DNA of 24,132 bases from a virus, in IMG/VR virus record IMGVR_UViG_3300027868_000030, positions 1 through 24,132 of that record. The stretch is one strand, 5' to 3'. Of the stretch, positions 1,870 to 12,060 are shown piece by piece; the stretch's first letter is position 1, and each line of letters opens with the position of its first letter. The translations under genes and the position numbers were made by a program. The notes under the pieces were generated by a model. The model saw only the letters and a program-made list of their open reading frames with translations. It did no database searches and was not told the DNA's origin.

Positions 1870-3867
1870 ATGAGAATCAAAATAGGAAAAGTCACTTATA
1901 AGAATTTCAAATGTTTTAAGGACTTGACGGCTGACTTTCAGTACAGGAATGCCGTAGCAAGGGGGGAGAACGGCGTAGGCAAGACGTCGTTGAAGGATGG
2001 TGTCTTCTGGGTGCTATACGATAAGGACGCTTCCGGCCGGAAAAGATTTGGGATACGTCCGGTAGATACTAATCCTGAAAGTCCGAAATATTGTAAAGCA
2101 ATTCCTGGCCTGGTTGTCGCCGTTGAATTCCCAATGCTTATCGACGGTGTCGCCAGGACATTCCGCAAGGAGCAGCACGAGAAAATCGATAAGTCCGGCA
2201 AACTGTCATATCAGAATAAATACTGGATCGACGATTACGCCATGCCGGAAGGGAAGTACAAAGAGGCTATGGCTAATATCATTCCCGAAGATAAATTCAA
2301 AATGTTGACCGATCTTGACTACTTCAATAATGACGAGAAGTTCGGCAGGCTAAATCGGCGGGAAATGATTGTAGATATGGCCGGTAATATCGGTACGCCT
2401 GCAGGATTTGAATCTTTGATTGCAAGGCTTAACGGTCATGATGTCAGCGAGGAGAAGAAACGCCTCGGCGATCACCTGGTACTTCTAACAAAAGAGCAGA
2501 CAGAAAACATAACACGAATAGACGAAAAACAACTGGGTCTTGATGAATACGCTCGGAATCAGGGTGACAGCGATGTTGAAATGCAGGCCAAGCGGGAAAT
2601 CCTGATCGAGAAAGTCGCCGGACTCGCCGGCAAGCAAAAAGAACTGCTGGCTACCGAGAAAAACCGTCAGGAAATTTACACGAAAATCAATCAAACAACC
2701 AACCTGAGACTTCACAGGGAAACCATCGTCAAGAACCAGTCCGGGGCGTTAGAGGATTTGATAGATGAACGGAATGGACTTGAGCAGAAACATGCCGATA
2801 AGTCGCAGGCCCTTGTCATATTGCAGAGCGAGATTCAGACAGTCAATACAAACATCGAAGGGATGCAGGCCGAGATCACCCAGAAGCTGCTTACGCTGAC
2901 GTCAATTAAGGAAGAGCAGAAGGCGGCGAAGAAAAAACCTGCCGCCGATACTTGCTATGCCTGCGGCCAGAAACTTCCTGCCGACAAGCTGGCCGAGAAC
3001 ATGAACAAACGCGAGATGGCACTTGAGGATATCAAAGCTCGCGGCAATGAGACAAAGGAAGCCATCAATGAGCGCAAGACCGTATTGCTCAAGCTGCAAG
3101 ATCAATTGAGCGATTTGATTGCCAGGCGGACTACGACTGTTGCCGACCTCGAAGCCGATAAGACCGCAAAGGACAAGCGCATCGCCGAGATTAACGAGGC
3201 CATAATGAACCGGCCCCAGGCGGACACGAGCGGCGATAAAGAGTGGCAGGAGCTGACGGCACAGATCGAGAAGCTGCAAGCGGAACTCGGCGAGCCCGTA
3301 ATCGTACAGCTTGAAAAACTCGAAGCGGAGAAAGGGTTGGCCGATGAACTATTAAGGCAGATGGACGGAGCCTTGGGCCAGGCCGACAGCATTGAAAAGA
3401 GCAAGGCAAGAATTGCGGAACTCGAAGCCCGTCAAAAGGTACTTGCCCAGTTGATAGCCGATTGCAATAAGAAGCTCGACGAGATAAAGCAATTTAACGT
3501 CGCTCAGTCCAGGATGGTCGAGTCCGCTGTTAATGGCATGTTCGACCACGTTACGTATAAGCTATTCGACTACTTCCAGAACGGTGATATCGACGACAGG
3601 GTCTGCGTTGCGATATTAGATGGTGTGCCGTACCCGGATATGTCGGATGGGCAGAAGATATATTGCAATATCGACGTCAGGAACACTTTGAGCGACCACT
3701 ACGGCGTCGAAGTCCCGCTGTTTATTGACCATTTTGAATCCCTAACCATGCCATTGGAGGCACAATCACAAACAATCTACCTTCAAGCCGTTCAGGGCGT
3801 TAAGGAACTACAAATCACGCTGGAAACCCAAACCGAAGTAGCCGAAAGGAAGGCGGAAGTGGCATGA
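1870..3867 (+). CDS. Rad50/SbcC-like AAA ATPase with zinc hook
   Basis: This 665-residue protein has the layout of a Rad50/SbcC/RecF-type ATPase. A Walker A motif GENGVGKTS lies at residues 32-40 near the N-terminus; a long coiled coil follows, broken by a CYAC zinc hook (Cys362 and Cys365); the coiled coil returns; and the C-terminal half-domain carries the signature-like MSDGQK (591-596) and a Walker B-like VPLFIDHFES (Asp620). Such proteins tether and process DNA ends with a nuclease partner. It is shorter than cellular Rad50 or SbcC, with short coiled-coil arms. The start has GAGGAAGGA at 1854-1862. It overlaps the next gene by 4 bases and heads a RecT operon, so a role in end processing for recombination is likely. 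No SbcD/Mre11-type nuclease is seen beside it. Confidence 0.85.
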   Translation: MRIKIGKVTYKNFKCFKDLTADFQYRNAVARGENGVGKTSLKDGVFWVLYDKDASGRKRFGIRPVDTNPESPKYCKAIPGLVVAVEFPMLIDGVARTFRKEQHEKIDKSGKLSYQNKYWIDDYAMPEGKYKEAMANIIPEDKFKMLTDLDYFNNDEKFGRLNRREMIVDMAGNIGTPAGFESLIARLNGHDVSEEKKRLGDHLVLLTKEQTENITRIDEKQLGLDEYARNQGDSDVEMQAKREILIEKVAGLAGKQKELLATEKNRQEIYTKINQTTNLRLHRETIVKNQSGALEDLIDERNGLEQKHADKSQALVILQSEIQTVNTNIEGMQAEITQKLLTLTSIKEEQKAAKKKPAADTCYACGQKLPADKLAENMNKREMALEDIKARGNETKEAINERKTVLLKLQDQLSDLIARRTTTVADLEADKTAKDKRIAEINEAIMNRPQADTSGDKEWQELTAQIEKLQAELGEPVIVQLEKLEAEKGLADELLRQMDGALGQADSIEKSKARIAELEARQKVLAQLIADCNKKLDEIKQFNVAQSRMVESAVNGMFDHVTYKLFDYFQNGDIDDRVCVAILDGVPYPDMSDGQKIYCNIDVRNTLSDHYGVEVPLFIDHFESLTMPLEAQSQTIYLQAVQGVKELQITLETQTEVAERKAEVA

Positions 3868-4046
3868 ACCTTTGCAGCGAGGGTCACGAAGAAGTTTGTT
3901 ATGAAGGGCGAATATGTCCCGCATGTGATCTGAAAGAAGATTATGAGAGTAAAATCGAAGAATTACAAGATGATTTAAAAGAAAGAGAGGAACAAAATGA
4001 AAGAGGCACAGGAAATTCAGAAACGAACGGAAGGCCCGATAGGTAA
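3864..4046 (+). CDS. Small zinc-finger/coiled-coil protein, 60 aa
   Basis: ATG 3864 overlaps the ATPase stop (ATGA), so translation is probably coupled. The N-terminus holds a Cys/His cluster (CSEGHEEVC and then CPAC), which fits one zinc site; the rest is a highly charged helix. The gene ends inside recT, overlapping it by 50 bases in another frame, and the recT ribosome-binding site lies within it. I do not recognise the family. Its place between the Rad50-like ATPase and RecT suggests an adaptor or regulator for one of them, which is an inference from context only. Confidence 0.65.
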   Translation: MNLCSEGHEEVCYEGRICPACDLKEDYESKIEELQDDLKEREEQNERGTGNSETNGRPDR

Positions 4047-5115
4047 GGTTCGAGAATATCTGGCTAACCCGGACGTCAAAGGCAGGCTGTTGGACATTCT
4101 GGGCAAACGTGCGGCGGCTTTCAGTAATTCGATTATCAACGTCGTAAGCGGCAGCAAGCAGTTGCAGGACATAGCCCGTGACAATCCGGGCAGCATAATG
4201 AGGGCGGCGATGAAGGCTGCGACGGTCAACCTTCCTATTGACCCGGCCCTGGGCTGGGCTGCGATTGTGCCTTACGGTAAAGAGGCATGTTTTCAAATCA
4301 TGTATAAGGGCGTAATTCAATTGTGCATACGTTCCAGGCAGTACAAGACAATCAACTGCTCTGAGATCTACGCCGATGAGCTTAAAAGCAACAATCCTAT
4401 TACCGGGGAAGTAACATTCAATGACCCTGAAACCTACAAGATGCGTTATCAGGATAACAGGGACAAGCACGTTGTCGGTCATTACATTTACTTCCGATTG
4501 AAAACGGGCTTTGAAAAGTCGGGATACATAAGCTGCAAAGAAGCTCTCGCCCATGCCAAGAAGTACAGCAAGGCTTACCAATATGATCTGAAATTCAAAA
4601 AGGCGACGAGTGCCTGGTCAACAAATTATGTGGAGATGGGCAACAAAACCGTGATTCTCAAAGAGCTTAAACGTTACGGTGTAATGTCAATCGACATGCA
4701 GGATGCTCTTATTGCCGAACACGAAACGTTCGAGGAAGCCCAAACGAACGCTTCAAGGATGATTGCCGAGGAGTCCGGTTCAGAGCCCGTCGATACGACG
4801 TTCGAGGAAAACGATAAGCCCGACCCTGATGATAAGCCCGACGCCGAGACCCAGGCGAAGATCGATAAGGAGAAGGCTAAACTCGCAGCTGCTGATAAGA
4901 AGGCAAAGACCAAAGGCAAAGACAAGGACGCCAAGCCGAAGTATCACTGTAACAATTCTAAGTGCAAAATAGATTTCCAGGAGCCCAACGCAACCAACGT
5001 CGTCAAAGGCTCTCAATGCCCGAACTGTTTGACCTGGAATACACAATTGAACAACCCGGAAGCGAAGACGGACGAGAACATCCCCGACCCGAGCATTATG
5101 GAAGATGAGGAATAA
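3997..5115 (+). CDS. recT: RecT-family single-strand annealing protein with C-terminal zinc ribbon
   Basis: The first 240 residues or so are RecT-like: a helical N-terminus, then NLPIDPALGWAAIVPYG and a MYKGVIQLCIRSRQY segment typical of the RecT core, followed by the GYISCKEALAHAKKYSKAY region. RecT anneals complementary single strands during phage recombination and usually works with an exonuclease. Length is 372 residues, longer than classical RecT (about 270). The extra C-terminus is an acidic and then Lys/Ala/Asp-rich linker, followed by a four-cysteine zinc ribbon (Cys318, Cys323, Cys341, Cys344) and an acidic tail. The ribosome-binding site AGAGAGG lies just before ATG 3997. It is the centre of the recombination operon. 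Confidence 0.88.
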   Translation: MKEAQEIQKRTEGPIGKVREYLANPDVKGRLLDILGKRAAAFSNSIINVVSGSKQLQDIARDNPGSIMRAAMKAATVNLPIDPALGWAAIVPYGKEACFQIMYKGVIQLCIRSRQYKTINCSEIYADELKSNNPITGEVTFNDPETYKMRYQDNRDKHVVGHYIYFRLKTGFEKSGYISCKEALAHAKKYSKAYQYDLKFKKATSAWSTNYVEMGNKTVILKELKRYGVMSIDMQDALIAEHETFEEAQTNASRMIAEESGSEPVDTTFEENDKPDPDDKPDAETQAKIDKEKAKLAAADKKAKTKGKDKDAKPKYHCNNSKCKIDFQEPNATNVVKGSQCPNCLTWNTQLNNPEAKTDENIPDPSIMEDEE

Positions 5116-5117
5116 TC

Positions 5118-5885
5118 ATGGTAGATAAAGACGAACACAAGAAAAATGAAAATGCTTCAAAAAATATGTACGTATCAAAAGAAGGCTTTGAAAACGTACC
5201 ACTAAGACGGGGCTTTGATGTTATGCGGCCTCTATGGAAAATCCTCAACGATGTTAAAAGCCAGACAAAACAGGACTGTTTCATCTGCGGTGGGTACGCT
5301 CGGTTCTGCGCATCGCCGAGGAAAAAACCAATAGAGGCGGTGGATATAGATGTTTATTGTGAGACAGAAGATGTCTTTAATGTTCTCCAAAAGGCATTAG
5401 AAACATCAGGCTTGGAAGTCCGGCACGAAAATAATATCTCGCTGACTTATGAAGGCCCAGAAGATGGCGAATACGCATACATGCCACCGATTCAACTTAT
5501 TAAACCTATGCAGGAAGCTCGCATCGTTTCGTTCGGTGACAAGAAAACGATTCTTGAAAATTTTGATTTCACTGTGATAAGAGCCGCAATTCTCAGTCCC
5601 GAAGAAGTTATGGTAGACGCAGATTTTATGCACGATGAAAAGCATACACTTCTTCGATTGAAAAATATTCATTGTCCTGTAAGTTCGACCCTTCGGTGTA
5701 TGAAGTATTCCCGTAAAGGTTACTGGCTTCGGCCTTTTGAGTGTCTCAAACTATTCATCGACTGGACAGATAGGCCAGATGAATATCGAATTAAATTGAT
5801 AGAGTTCTTACGGAAAGCATCTGAGAACGATGGATTATCGCAAGTAGAAGTAGACGAACTCGAAGCAATGATGAGGATTGACTGA
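5118..5885 (+). CDS. Nucleotidyltransferase-fold protein (class II CCA/poly(A) polymerase-like head)
   Basis: The 255-residue protein carries motifs of the class II tRNA nucleotidyltransferase/poly(A) polymerase head: GGYAR at 58-62 (the GG-x-x-R helix turn), the metal-binding pair in DIDVY (Asp76 and Asp78), and DFTVIR at 150-155, which parallels the RDFTIN motif of CCA enzymes. Those enzymes add nucleotides to RNA 3' ends. At 255 residues it has a head plus a short helical tail and seems to lack the usual RNA-binding body. An AGGA site precedes ATG 5118. It lies two bases after recT, before the MBL-fold gene, in the same operon. Substrate is unknown; nucleic acid or protein (nucleotidylylation or antitoxin-like) are both possible. 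Confidence 0.7.
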   Translation: MVDKDEHKKNENASKNMYVSKEGFENVPLRRGFDVMRPLWKILNDVKSQTKQDCFICGGYARFCASPRKKPIEAVDIDVYCETEDVFNVLQKALETSGLEVRHENNISLTYEGPEDGEYAYMPPIQLIKPMQEARIVSFGDKKTILENFDFTVIRAAILSPEEVMVDADFMHDEKHTLLRLKNIHCPVSSTLRCMKYSRKGYWLRPFECLKLFIDWTDRPDEYRIKLIEFLRKASENDGLSQVEVDELEAMMRID

Positions 5886-5900
5886 TAGTTGGGACAAGTA

Positions 5901-6623
5901 ATGCAATTTAAGGCACATTACAGCAGCAGCACAGGCAACCTATACGAAGTCGTGGCTTCGAATGGGAAAAGACTGCTCATCGACCCTGGCGTGACGTGGA
6001 AGAAACGGGTGAAGGCGTTAAGCCATGACCTGAGCAATATAGCAGGGGCATTAGTCACGCACGAGCATAAGGATCATTCTAAAGCGGTAGAGGACGTCCT
6101 ACTTGCGGAGATAGATGTGTACGCCAGTGCCGGGACGTTCGAGGCCCTGGGCGTCGTGCATCGCAAAGCTCACGTAATAGAAGATCGCGGCCCGTTCATC
6201 ATAGCAAATACGTTCGATGTTTTTCCGTTCGACGTTGACCATGATGCCGGAGAACCGTTAGGCTTTGTGGTGCATGATCGGTCAAGCAAACAGTGCCTAC
6301 TGTTCGTCACCGATACCAGGAGTATCAAGCCGAAATTCGGCCTTGCCTTCTCCATAATAGCCATCTGCTGTTCTTACGACGGTGCTGTGCTGCGTGAACT
6401 TGAGGCAACGGGCAAGATAGACCCATCGCTGGCAAAACGCCTTCTAACAAGCCACATGGAGAAGGAAACCACAAAGGCGTATATCAGGGACCATTGCTGC
6501 ACGGACAAACTGACCGAGATATATTTGCTCCACATGTCCGGCGGCAATATCGACCAGGAAACGACACGAGCGGAGTTTGAAGATGAATTCTTTACAAAGA
6601 CGATTATAGCTGGCAGGCGGTGA
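5901..6623 (+). CDS. Metallo-beta-lactamase-fold hydrolase
   Basis: The protein has the MBL fold: an N-terminal strand pair around SSSTGNLYEV, a strand leading to LIDPG, and the metal motif THEHKDH (His54, His56, Asp58, His59 counted from ATG 5901). A later Asp in FVTDTRS and histidines in LTSHME and LLHMSGG could complete a two-metal site. The frame is open to a TTG at 5889, but family members usually begin a few residues before the SSSxGN strand, so ATG 5901 is preferred. MBL proteins next to recT are common in phages and are suspected of acting as the nuclease partner, which is family-context knowledge rather than something shown here. A terminator overlaps its 3' end. Confidence 0.82.
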   Translation: MQFKAHYSSSTGNLYEVVASNGKRLLIDPGVTWKKRVKALSHDLSNIAGALVTHEHKDHSKAVEDVLLAEIDVYASAGTFEALGVVHRKAHVIEDRGPFIIANTFDVFPFDVDHDAGEPLGFVVHDRSSKQCLLFVTDTRSIKPKFGLAFSIIAICCSYDGAVLRELEATGKIDPSLAKRLLTSHMEKETTKAYIRDHCCTDKLTEIYLLHMSGGNIDQETTRAEFEDEFFTKTIIAGRR

Positions 6624-6666: not shown

Positions 6667-6721
6667 ATAGAAATCGAAATAGACAGGGAACTTGAGGAGT
6701 ATTTTACGCAAGGATGCAATG

Positions 6722-6832
6722 ATGGCATTATCAAAGAAAATTAGATTTGAAGTATTTAAGAGAGATGGATTCACTTGTGTGTATTGTGGCAAAAGAATAG
6801 GAGTTTTGCAATTTCATGAGCAAACTGAGTAA
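6722..6832 (+). pseudogene. HNH endonuclease N-terminal stub
   Basis: ATG 6722, preceded by AAGGA (6710-6714), reads MALSKKIRFEVFKRDGFTC and then VYCGKR, the classic start of an HNH endonuclease including the first zinc-binding CxxC. The histidine-bearing core that should follow (a VDHI-type segment) is absent. After residue 25 the frame runs into the 41-bp tandem array and stops at 6832, giving 36 residues. This is a remnant of a homing or DNase-type HNH gene whose 3' part was replaced by the repeats. It is AT-rich compared with the MBL gene before it. Confidence 0.75.
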
Positions 6833-6896: not shown

Positions 6897-6970
6897 TTTG
6901 TGGGTTAGATGAATTTCTAACACGTTTTTAAACAAAAGCGTCATTGATGGAAAAAGATAGAGAGGCAAGG

Positions 6971-7714
6971 ATGCCAAAACGATTCACGATAACTGAAAAA
7001 TGGGAAGATCGTTGGTTCTGGTCTCTCAAACCAAATGAAAAACTTCTATGGAATTATCTGTGTGATAAATGTGATTTAGCTGGTTTTTGGGAGGTTAATA
7101 TTGAGCTTGCCGCTGTTCAAACGAAGATAACAAAGAGGGGCATTGAAGGGGCATTGAAGGGGCTTAGTAGGGGCTACTTAGAAAGTGGAAAATATCTATG
7201 GCTAAGAAATTTTATCTACCATCAAGGTAACTACCCACTCAATCCAAAAAATAATGCTCATAAACATATAATTGCTTTAATAAGTAGGCACTGTGATTTT
7301 GATGTAGATTTCTACGAGGAGTTAGACAAAACAGGAAGCCCCAAGGTAGGGGCTAGTCAATCTATTTTAGGGGCTAATCAGGGGCTAATTAGCCCCATAG
7401 GTATAAGTAAAGGTAAAGGTAAAGGTAAAGGTAAAGGTAATAAGGGGGGGTGGGGGGGGGAAATCCCATCATACAAACTTAAAGATTTTCTGGATGCTGG
7501 TATTCTTGTTGGTCTTACAGTAGCTGAATCAGAAGCATGTTTTGATTACTACAAAGGTGAGCAATTTCTTTTTGGATCCGGCAGGTCGGTTATGAACGCC
7601 GCTGATGCTTGCAAGCGTTGGCGCAATAATAGGCAATATTTCACAAAACAAGGCAAACAAAAAGAATCTGTCGCAGATCATGTAGAACAACTCAAAGCAG
7701 AGGGAAGATTATGA
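6971..7714 (+). CDS. Phage replication initiator-like protein (DnaD/replisome-organiser type)
   Basis: The N-terminal 100 residues have the pattern of phage replisome organisers: EKWEDRWFWSLKPNEKLLW followed by YLCDKCDLAGFWEV, a winged-helix-like DNA-binding domain. These proteins bind the phage origin and recruit helicase loader and helicase. A low-complexity linker with a KG repeat follows, then a C-terminal domain (DYYKGEQFLF, WRNNRQYF) as in DnaD-like proteins. The start at 6971 is chosen because GAGAGG (6960-6965) precedes it by 5 bases; in-frame ATG 6947 and TTG 6944 lack such a site. Its DNA is more AT-rich than its neighbours, yet holds G-runs, palindromes and hexamer repeats that look like a nested origin. 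It overlaps the next gene by 4 bases. Confidence 0.75.
   Translation: MPKRFTITEKWEDRWFWSLKPNEKLLWNYLCDKCDLAGFWEVNIELAAVQTKITKRGIEGALKGLSRGYLESGKYLWLRNFIYHQGNYPLNPKNNAHKHIIALISRHCDFDVDFYEELDKTGSPKVGASQSILGANQGLISPIGISKGKGKGKGKGNKGGWGGEIPSYKLKDFLDAGILVGLTVAESEACFDYYKGEQFLFGSGRSVMNAADACKRWRNNRQYFTKQGKQKESVADHVEQLKAEGRL
7137..7173 (+). other. Perfectly periodic G-quadruplex motif
   Basis: Four runs of GGGG start at 7137, 7148, 7159 and 7170, separated by three 7-base spacers, so the period is exactly 11 bp. The first two spacers are identical (CATTGAA). This fits the standard sequence rule for an intramolecular G-quadruplex on the + strand, which is also the non-template strand of the initiator gene. 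Confidence 0.7.
7337..7460 (+). repeat. Dyad, hexamer and G-tract cluster inside the initiator gene (candidate origin)
   Basis: In order: AGCCCC-N6-GGGGCT (7337-7354), a GGGGCTAATC half site at 7370, the perfect 16-bp palindrome GGGGCTAATTAGCCCC (7381-7396), five tandem AGGTAA hexamers (7411-7440), then G7-T-G9 (7444-7460). GGGGCTA occurs four times between 7170 and 7387. Nested iteron clusters in the initiator gene are known from lambda-type origins (ori within gene O). The assignment here is inference from that layout; low-complexity linker drift is the alternative. Confidence 0.5.
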
Positions 7715-8322
7715 ATGATTTACAAGCTGTTGAGCTAATTGAGGATGTATTCAGAGTGCACTGGCCGAACTGGAATTTCCCATTAGAGGAGGCGGCGGTC
7801 TGGGTAAAGGAACTACGCAGATATGACTATGACCGGGCAAAGACGGCGATAAATACTTTCTATATGGCCCAGACAAAACAAGGTAAGCCGCCGCCGGCCT
7901 CCCTTAAAGCGGCATTGCGGAATTCCATAGAGCGGAAGGACCAAAAAGAAGGTGAACTCACGGGGCCGTTGTTTGGAATCAAACGTGCCGATGGTCGTCT
8001 GCGATGGCATAAATTTACCGGCAATCTCAATATGGCCCAACAGGATATTGAGGCAATGGCCTTAAAATTCTGTCGCTACGCCAACCTGTTAGAGACCGGC
8101 CATTACATCGAGTATTACTCGACGGATACAGAGGACAAAGGCTACTATGGAGAGGAAGGGTGTACGATAACACAACGTTGCAGGCAAGCCCGAGACAAAG
8201 CCTTTGCCGACATTCTTAATGGCCCGGACACCAAGATAAAACGATGGTTGCAGAGATACCTGACAAAGAAATACAAGGCCGAAGACGGAGCACAGCAGAT
8301 CGGGGAATTATTGAAGATATGA
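7711..8322 (+). CDS. Probable helicase loader / G39P-like replication protein
   Basis: The 203-residue protein starts at ATG 7711, overlapping the initiator stop (ATGA). Its N-terminal 70 residues follow the pattern of small phage helicase-loader proteins: an amphipathic helix, PNWNFPLEEAAVWVKELR, then YDYDRAKTAINTF and a PPPASLKAAL turn. The C-terminal part is basic and helical and may contact the helicase or DNA. Loaders of this kind bind the replicative helicase and the origin protein. No DnaB-type helicase or primase is seen in the window, so the phage would use the host helicase. The match is by pattern only. Confidence 0.5.
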   Translation: MNDLQAVELIEDVFRVHWPNWNFPLEEAAVWVKELRRYDYDRAKTAINTFYMAQTKQGKPPPASLKAALRNSIERKDQKEGELTGPLFGIKRADGRLRWHKFTGNLNMAQQDIEAMALKFCRYANLLETGHYIEYYSTDTEDKGYYGEEGCTITQRCRQARDKAFADILNGPDTKIKRWLQRYLTKKYKAEDGAQQIGELLKI

Positions 8323-8981: not shown

Positions 8982-9440
8982 ATGGCTGATTACGAATTGA
9001 TAATCTTAGGCGAGCCGAAGGCACAGAAGCGACACAGGCACACCGGCAGGGACGGTGCCGGCAATCCCCTGAAGTTCGTGCGTACATACGACCCATCGGC
9101 CACAGACAAACAGAACTTGCACGATGTAGTCCAGAGACAAGCCCCCGCCAAGCCGTTGTTGGGGCCGTTGCGAGTCGATTGTCATTTCTACTTCGGCCAC
9201 TTGAAGGGCCACTATGGTTCCGGCAAAAACGCAGGCAACCTCAAAGCCTCGGCGCCGTTGTGGAAAAATACAAAACCAGACCGTGACAACTTAGACAAGT
9301 TCGTTCTGGATGCAATTACAGGCGTATTCTTCCTGAATGATTCGCAGGTATGCGATGGCCGAATAATAAAAAAATACTCGGAACGACCGAGAATGGAAAT
9401 ATTTATCACACAATTAAGAAAGGAGGTGGCACGATTATGA
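8982..9440 (+). CDS. rusA: RusA-family Holliday junction resolvase
   Basis: The 152-residue protein has the RusA layout: GEPKAQKRHRHT near the N-terminus (as in the family's GxPxxKxRPR strand) and the catalytic block KPDRDNLDKFVLDAITG with acidic residues Asp100, Asp102, Asp105 and Asp110, followed by DSQVCDGRIIKKY and a terminal strand. RusA is a dimeric metal-dependent endonuclease that cuts Holliday junctions and branched replication intermediates before packaging. Length is slightly above E. coli RusA (120). It acts with the recombination genes upstream. The ribosome-binding site is weak. Confidence 0.88.
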   Translation: MADYELIILGEPKAQKRHRHTGRDGAGNPLKFVRTYDPSATDKQNLHDVVQRQAPAKPLLGPLRVDCHFYFGHLKGHYGSGKNAGNLKASAPLWKNTKPDRDNLDKFVLDAITGVFFLNDSQVCDGRIIKKYSERPRMEIFITQLRKEVARL

Positions 9441-11243: not shown

Positions 11244-11555
11244 GTGGGAAGGAAACCGCAAGACAAAGACACTGTAAAGACAATAGAACGATTACACAAG
11301 AGAATCGAGAATCTTACAAAGGCCAATACCCGCGATTTGCAGGAAATGGCCGAGCGCGGCAAGGACCTGGTCAAGCTCGCAAATATCATAAGGGGCTGCG
11401 AAGATATTATCGAGCAGTCTGTTTACGAGAAGCTCATTGATGTCGTGAAGAAATTCGAGGAACGTTGCTATGTGACACGAAGGAAGAGAATTAAGAAAGG
11501 AAATCAGAATGAGAACAGTAATAATAAGAAAATTGATGAAGATCAAAGCCTGTAA
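11244..11555 (+). CDS. Coiled-coil hypothetical protein, 103 aa
   Basis: GTG 11244 is the likely start, with AGGAG (11232-11236) 7 bases upstream. The product is highly charged and helical, with heptad-like spacing over about residues 10-75 (RLHKRIENLTKAN, KDLVKLANIIRG, YEKLIDVVKKFEE), and a basic, then Asn-rich tail. It overlaps the next gene by 47 bases in another frame. No function is recognised. Confidence 0.55.
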   Translation: MGRKPQDKDTVKTIERLHKRIENLTKANTRDLQEMAERGKDLVKLANIIRGCEDIIEQSVYEKLIDVVKKFEERCYVTRRKRIKKGNQNENSNNKKIDEDQSL

Positions 11556-12060
11556 GAAGGCGGTAAGCTATGCCAGGCAGCAACCGAACTGGCAGGCTGC
11601 ATGGGATAAATGCGAGAGAGGGGATTGGATGCTCTGGCTATTGGGTAAATTATCGGGACCATCGGAAAGCAAGAGCAGGAAAAAACTTGTATTAACCACT
11701 TGTAAATGTGCGCGTCTATCTTTGAAATACATTCCAAAAAAAGAAAAGAGGCCATTGGTAGCGATTGAAACGGCGGAAAAATGGGCTCGGGGAGAAGAGA
11801 CGCTCGGTAATGTCAAACTCGCCGCCGATGCCGCCTATGCCGCCGCCGATGCCGCCGATGCCGCCGCCTATGCCTCCTATGCCGAAGCCGCCGCCCATGC
11901 CGCCTATGCCGATGCCGCCGATGCCGCCTATGCAGCCGCCTATGCAGCCGATGCCTCCTATGCCGATGCCGCCGATGCCGCCGAACGAGAGAAAACATTA
12001 AAACAGTTATCTGTGATAGTGAAGAAGATGTATCCCAAAGCGCCGAAATTAATGGATTAA
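11509..12060 (+). CDS. Ala-rich Imm5-like protein, 183 aa
   Basis: The N-terminal half has the pattern seen in proteins annotated as putative immunity protein (Imm5-like): a helix with ACKKAVSYAR, WDKCERGDWMLWLLGKL, a cysteine-bearing helix TTCKCARLSL, and IETAEKWARGEETLG. The second half (about residues 103-160) is a run of ADAAYA-type repeats coded by GCC, GAT and TAT triplets, an all-helical Ala-rich repeat, and then a short basic end. Imm5 was proposed as an immunity family in toxin systems, but many copies are in phages with no toxin nearby, as here. AAAGGAAA precedes ATG 11509. The repeat DNA creates long open shadow frames on both strands. Confidence 0.65.
   Translation: MRTVIIRKLMKIKACKKAVSYARQQPNWQAAWDKCERGDWMLWLLGKLSGPSESKSRKKLVLTTCKCARLSLKYIPKKEKRPLVAIETAEKWARGEETLGNVKLAADAAYAAADAADAAAYASYAEAAAHAAYADAADAAYAAAYAADASYADAADAAEREKTLKQLSVIVKKMYPKAPKLMD

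Follow-up and report, generated by a model that had tools for sequence, protein, structure and literature searches.

Which protein takes the place of the nuclease where a phage encodes a Rad50-like ATPase close to the annealing protein RecT? The question is raised by a viral record of 24,132 bases (IMG/VR record IMGVR_UViG_3300027868_000030; the whole stretch was analysed and is called the window here), which encodes a P22/SU10-like portal and is probably a fragment. The window carries genes for an SbcC/Rad50-like ATPase, a 60-aa cysteine-rich protein, RecT, a nucleotidyltransferase and a protein of the metallo-beta-lactamase (MBL) fold. A reading made from the letters alone (the sequence-only reading) had taken these five genes for one operon and proposed them as a candidate undescribed system, with the MBL protein as the only candidate for the nuclease.

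Here we report that the conserved unit consists of three of these genes, encoding the zinc-hook ATPase, the annealing protein and the MBL protein. We consider this unit, with a probability of about 0.7, to be a phage module for homologous recombination that pairs an exonuclease with an annealer, comparable to RecET and Red; a WalJ-type MBL protein would serve as the exonuclease. The argument is built on the linkage of the genes, the exclusion of known exonucleases, the homology of the MBL protein to WalJ, and the occurrence of exchangeable annealing cores with cassette-specific C-termini, all of which were observed directly.

Three of the five genes are linked

All five open reading frames (ORFs) of the sequence-only reading were recovered at the positions in Table 1, on the plus strand and closely packed. 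The proposed operon is borne out to the extent that the five ORFs adjoin one another; a promoter and terminator scan gave nothing above shuffled sequence.

When co-occurrence was followed across phages, the ATPase, the annealer and the MBL protein proved to be linked. A scan of viral contigs with the window MBL protein found the ATPase gene upstream on the same strand in 78 of 80 loci, and the two loci without it are both cut by contig ends. The reverse scan with the ATPase found an MBL gene in 78 of 80 loci; of the other two, one breaks off at a contig end and one has no MBL gene. Usually a single gene of ~200-380 codons lies between the two, and in most loci it is of the annealing type. Among 80 loci recovered with RecT, both the ATPase and the MBL gene were present in 15, neither in 65, and only one of them in none. 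The pair was also found in 58/65 GTDB loci, the genomes belonging to Bacillota, Bacteroidota, Deferribacterota, Nitrospirota and Cloacimonadota; several of the GTDB loci lacking it hold other MBL genes, among them chromosomal ones of the WalJ type. The cassette order recurs in named phages of Staphylococcus, Paenibacillus, Listeria, Marinitoga, Bacteroides and Stenotrophomonas. Both flanking proteins are orthologous in the window, its nearest cassette relative (locus L004) and a further locus (L005), with identities to the window of 67% and 48% for the MBL protein and of 48% and 37% for the ATPase, respectively.

The remaining two genes did not follow the cassette. The 60-aa ORF matched no Pfam family, and none of the 80 viral MBL loci contained a relative; the nucleotidyltransferase was found in no other cassette among the viral MBL, ATPase and RecT loci and the GTDB loci, L004 included. 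A copy of the nucleotidyltransferase with 80% identity lies in an unrelated phage locus that has no cassette. Elsewhere its neighbours are SSB and DnaB, RecA, Sak4 with a PD-(D/E)XK nuclease, an SNF2-type helicase, or the alpha subunit of Pol III; because of these neighbours we regard it as a gene typical of the replication and recombination regions of phages at large, inserted here as a passenger unrelated to the cassette. It is thus scarcely credible that all five genes make up one system in which the nucleotidyltransferase tails or repairs DNA ends: that they adjoin in the window, and that RecA, Sak4, SSB and DnaB stand beside the enzyme elsewhere, would suit such a system, but the co-occurrence counts largely refute it.

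The MBL protein is homologous to WalJ/YycJ

The likelier start of the MBL gene is the ATG at 5901 rather than the listed TTG at 5889, because the protein of L004 begins at the same point. The HxHxDH motif (residues 58-63), H118, D142, H189 and H215 are invariant in 53 relatives, and all metal ligands are present in the window protein. The structural model (pLDDT 95) matched a range of MBL folds, including those of RNase Z, YhfI and RNase J. In a search of six host genomes with the MBL profile, prophage copies were matched at 1e-85 to 1e-112. The next match was one chromosomal WalJ/YycJ-type protein in each genome, at 4e-31 to 2e-34 and nearly full length, and proteins of RNase J size were matched only at ~1e-8. 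This second, chromosomal group carries WalJ/YycJ motifs, and rlmH follows both its member in L266 and the Acholeplasma copies in L164 and L165.

The phage proteins accordingly share with WalJ/YycJ nearly full-length homology and all the MBL motifs, including HDAxEPxGF and HLSxxN; they differ from WalJ/YycJ in forming a clade of their own and in being tied to an ATPase and an annealer, not to rlmH or walRK. In the tree, the cassette proteins form one clade beside WalJ (support 96/90, and 81/0 with more rows), outside the chromosomal WalJ/YycJ clade, with the exception of the protein of Paenibacillus phage Pl23. In this phage, a zinc-hook ATPase of 510 aa, RecT and an MBL protein stand in cassette order; the MBL protein reaches 242 bits against the chromosomal YycJ model and 134 bits against that of the phage proteins, and it groups inside chromosomal YycJ, on a long branch that calls for caution. 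In Pl23, a WalJ protein seems to have been recruited into the same slot on a separate occasion, as an exonuclease role predicts. WalJ itself is reported to be a 5'-3' double-stranded DNA exonuclease of mismatch repair (Yang 2013, as cited in PMC4801191; also PMC9836290 and PMC8034640).

Other functions of the MBL fold were weighed against this kinship. It is very improbable that the protein is an Apyc1-like phosphodiesterase directed against cyclic-nucleotide defence signals and that its proximity to RecT is incidental. One pair of deposited phage annotations does read "anti-Pycsar nuclease", and there are weak matches to PF23023 (25.4 bits) and to 7u2s (E=4e-4 over 53 residues); the former, however, reaches half of the cut-off of 50, whereas the matches to WalJ/YycJ-type proteins extend over nearly the whole length, at ~1e-31 to 1e-34, and such a role would leave the linkage to an SbcC-like ATPase and the exclusion of exonucleases unexplained. 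The Apyc1 assignment was rejected on the PF23023 score and the WalJ kinship.

A recT-lactamase B2 combination without recognizable exonuclease has been described in Bacillales prophages and tied to the transfer of resistance genes (PMC8093625). The RecT-MBL neighbourhood is the same as ours; that study differs in being confined to Bacillales, in drawing no link to the ATPase and in proposing the spread of drug-resistance genes. A lactamase of the drug-resistance type, spread with recT by horizontal transfer, could call on the Lactamase_B_2 domain match and on the movement of the recT-MBL pair between phages, yet the protein is kin to WalJ and not to hydrolytic beta-lactamases, and its order with the ATPase is fixed in phages of several phyla; we give this explanation practically no chance. 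As a true beta-lactamase the protein was rejected, with nothing in support.

Cassette phages lack the usual exonucleases

YqaJ, DUF3799 and the Metallophos domain of SbcD (PF00149) each exceeded the cut-off in 0/50 long cassette contigs, and the 24-kb window likewise has no match to any of the three. Where RecT occurs outside the cassette, YqaJ exceeded the cut-off in 21 and DUF3799 in 13 of 50 contigs. Taken with the WalJ/YycJ kinship, this absence upholds the earlier choice of the MBL protein as the best candidate nuclease, at the position of Mre11/SbcD as well as that of RecE/YqaJ.

The cassette resembles RecET of the Rac prophage and Red alpha-beta of lambda in having an annealer of the RecT superfamily beside a candidate 5'-3' exonuclease, and its MBL protein fills the slot that YqaJ or DUF3799 holds in other RecT phages. 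It departs from them in that the candidate nuclease has the MBL fold and an SbcC-like ATPase is always added; an annealer beside a PD-(D/E)XK exonuclease, the arrangement that defines RecET and Red, was found neither in the cassette records nor in the window.

The ATPase is of the SbcC/Rad50 kind

The best match of the ATPase in a profile search of the PDB was Rad50, and its hook region also matched structures of the Rad50 hook. It is an ABC ATPase split by a coiled coil with a CxxC zinc hook, the architecture of SbcC/Rad50, and N34, G37 and K38 of Walker A, both hook cysteines (C362 and C365) and D620 are invariant in 33 relatives. The canonical DE pair of Walker B is absent: D620 is followed by N or H, and a glutamate at 623 is conserved at 96%. 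As in SbcCD and Rad50-Mre11, a zinc-hook ABC ATPase is obligately linked to a gene resembling a metallo-nuclease. Unlike those systems, the cassette has no calcineurin-like SbcD/Mre11 and its partner has the MBL fold; the ATPase, moreover, is only ~500-700 aa long, and departs from the standard Walker B in the way just described (N/H after the D, E three residues on).

Two deposited records bear on this gene. In Staphylococcus phage 23MRA (L253, 2611-4565), features named "AAA ATPase" and "endonuclease" stand where a single ATPase gene is expected; these labels look wrong, because PHROG 20188 (endonuclease) and PHROG 21084 (recombinase) match the C-terminal part of the cassette ATPase. According to the record of Marinitoga phage MPV1 (L256, 3-1082), the genome as packaged carries a disrupted gene of the SMC-like ATPase.

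Annealing cores are exchanged and C-termini follow the cassette

The window annealer belongs to RecT by its match to PF03837 (99.5 bits against a cut-off of 24). Across cassettes the annealing cores vary, and RecT, Bet, PHROG 561, PHROG 3657 and PHROG 862 types were all found. The C-terminus, by comparison, follows the cassette. A tip of the form P.{0,2}[FWYIL], such as GPGF, APPF or ECPF, ends 64/86 cassette annealers versus 0/39 RecTs from outside (dereplicated sets; Fisher 6e-17, uncorrected for relatedness). RecT-type partners have it as often (33/44) as the others do (31/42), and the tip ends 2.4% of the other ORFs of the same loci. We rejected the view that RecTs in general carry the tip at their very C-terminus, because none of the 39 outside proteins does. 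The cassette tip resembles the C-terminal tip of SSB and the tail of T7 gp2.5.

In the window lineage, a shared zinc-ribbon tail takes the place of the PxF tip on unrelated cores. Residues 226-358 of the window RecT share 41% identity over 132 residues with the tail of the L004 annealer (E=1e-23), and the cores of these two proteins gave no match to each other; L005 has a third type of core. Cores have thus been swapped and tails kept, which suggests the tail as the docking part. In a single contig, from a metagenome-assembled genome (L148, 7674-8708), ~110 residues from the N-terminus of a PHROG 862-like protein of the annealer position are fused in frame with the MBL protein.

These observations bear on an unlikely alternative that nonetheless deserves a hearing, in which the ATPase and the MBL protein form an end- or fork-processing nuclease of phage replication, acting for instance on hairpins or stalled ends, and the annealer is a mere neighbour. 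The genes downstream encode a replication-initiation protein and a helicase loader, partners of SbcC act on palindromes (the name given to PHROG 77), and the role reported for WalJ in the citing papers is mismatch repair, not recombination. Against it, an annealing-type gene lies between the ATPase and the MBL gene in most loci, the C-terminus of the annealer rather than its core follows the cassette, and the exonucleases on which RecT relies elsewhere are missing from cassette records.

A model for the recombination module

In the recombination module that we favour, the MBL protein would trim the 5' strand at double-strand ends, as its kinship to WalJ/YycJ suggests. The ATPase, judging from its obligate linkage, would probably clamp the DNA end or open it, and supply the nuclease, as it does with SbcD/Mre11 elsewhere. 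The annealer would then be loaded on the 3' single strand and pair it with homologous DNA, and its C-terminus (the PxF tip, or the zinc-ribbon tail in the window lineage) is likely to be the piece that docks to the ATPase or the MBL protein. The nucleotidyltransferase and the 60-aa protein would be dispensable. More tentatively, and at somewhat less than even odds, the cassette may represent an end-resection machine that is widespread among phages: a WalJ-type MBL protein would replace both Mre11/SbcD as partner of the ATPase and RecE as partner of RecT, and DNA would pass to interchangeable annealers through a plug-in C-terminus.

Several points weigh against a recombination exonuclease. The nuclease activity of the MBL protein and its binding to the other cassette proteins are what we infer from kinship and gene linkage, and its model matches nuclease and non-nuclease MBL enzymes alike. 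The activity of WalJ goes back to one study, known through the papers that cite it, and since the phage proteins branch apart from chromosomal WalJ, they may act on another substrate or with another polarity. E160 and N162, present in 96% and 94% of relatives and in chromosomal WalJ, are lost in the window and L004, which have C and S at these positions. About one third of the RecT records outside the cassette also lack YqaJ and DUF3799, and therefore a missing known exonuclease is by itself no proof. About one quarter of the cassette annealers do not have the tip, and neither the window nor L004 has a PxF tip. Finally, an internal TPF, SPF or LPF a few residues before the C-terminus is frequent in RecTs from outside the cassette (L173, L179, L180, L185, L189, L194, L227 and L242), perhaps as the same contact at another position.

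The nucleotidyltransferase

The passenger gene has the signature GG..DxD..FDFT (GG, DxD, NFDFT), invariant across 16 relatives. With invariant G58, G59, D76, D78 and D150 and the NTase fold it is of the Pol beta type, and these catalytic motifs and the fold are what it shares with CCA-adding enzymes. It differs from them as a gene of phage replication modules that matches no curated Pfam or NCBIfam family above the cut-off, the CCA-adding/poly(A) polymerase family included. The best Foldseek matches of its model (pLDDT 87) were CCA-adding enzymes, at a modest TM of ~0.5, and a PDB sequence search with a three-row alignment gave nothing useful. As a guess from the modelled fold, RNA 3'-end repair would be the nearest role. 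One relative (L104, 5941-6720) is without the conserved C-terminal part, as after a frameshift.

Gene layout of the window

The features of the cassette and of its downstream neighbours are collected in Table 1.

Table 1. Cassette genes, their parts and downstream neighbours in the window
Feature	Position	Strand	Remarks
SbcC/Rad50-like ABC ATPase	1870..3867	+	665 aa; PHROG 77, E=4.5e-45; one CxxC zinc hook, residues 362-365; core gene
60-aa cysteine-rich CxxC ORF	3864..4046	+	overlaps the end of the ATPase gene and the start of RecT; outside the conserved unit
RecT gene, whole	3997..5115	+	PF03837, E=2.4e-28; C-terminal zinc ribbon
RecT annealing core	3997..4740	+	residues ~1-248; PF03837 over residues 42-247; exchangeable part
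RecT C-terminal tail	4672..5115	+	zinc ribbon CNNSKC...CPNC; putative site of docking to ATPase/MBL
CCA-adding-enzyme-like nucleotidyltransferase	5118..5885	+	conserved motifs and fold; inserted passenger
MBL-fold protein, kin of WalJ/YycJ	5889..6623	+	PHROG 392; Lactamase_B_2, E=1.2e-12; core gene; proposed 5'-3' exonuclease
Replication-initiation protein	6944..7714	+	PHROG 270, E=0.001; usual neighbour downstream of the cassette
Helicase loader	7711..8322	+	PHROG 2289, E=0.0011; usual neighbour downstream of the cassette
RusA Holliday-junction resolvase	8982..9440	+	PF05866, E=7.4e-21; usual neighbour downstream of the cassette

The replication-initiation, helicase-loader and RusA genes lie downstream of the window cassette as in Listeria phage B054. 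The gene order through the replication-initiation protein is the same in B054, Marinitoga MPV1 and Stenotrophomonas BUCT702, and RusA was also found in B054, MPV1 and 23MRA. Directly past the cassette, a 46-aa ORF (6692-6832, plus strand) corresponds to the beginning of HNH endonucleases (PHROG 14314 and 2118) and then ends; it appears to be a truncated or decayed HNH gene. Farther away, the C-terminal part of a tyrosine integrase (PF00589) is encoded at 445-987 on the minus strand, in an ORF without a complete N-terminal part, which suggests a temperate phage or a remnant of one. An alanine-rich repeat protein (11509-12060, plus strand) matches PF21805, an Imm5-like putative immunity protein, at E=3.8e-7.

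Conclusions

The three-gene core is common and was partly noticed earlier as the recT-lactamase B2 pair (PMC8093625). In our literature search we found no description of the trio of ATPase, annealer and MBL protein, although the neighbourhood may have been mentioned before, and the work on staphylococcal phage recombinases, as far as examined, does not treat the cassette.

If the cassette is such a recombination module, the missing exonuclease would be identified for a large class of RecT phages, including those of Staphylococcus, Listeria, Bacillus and Bacteroidota, and the labels lactamase, anti-Pycsar nuclease and endonuclease would be corrected. A Rad50-type ATPase would have swapped its nuclease partner for one of another fold, which bears on how these ATPases control nucleases. 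The short docking motif and the swap of tails would offer concrete, testable features, and complete recombineering sets would become possible for hosts in which RecT alone works only with oligonucleotides.

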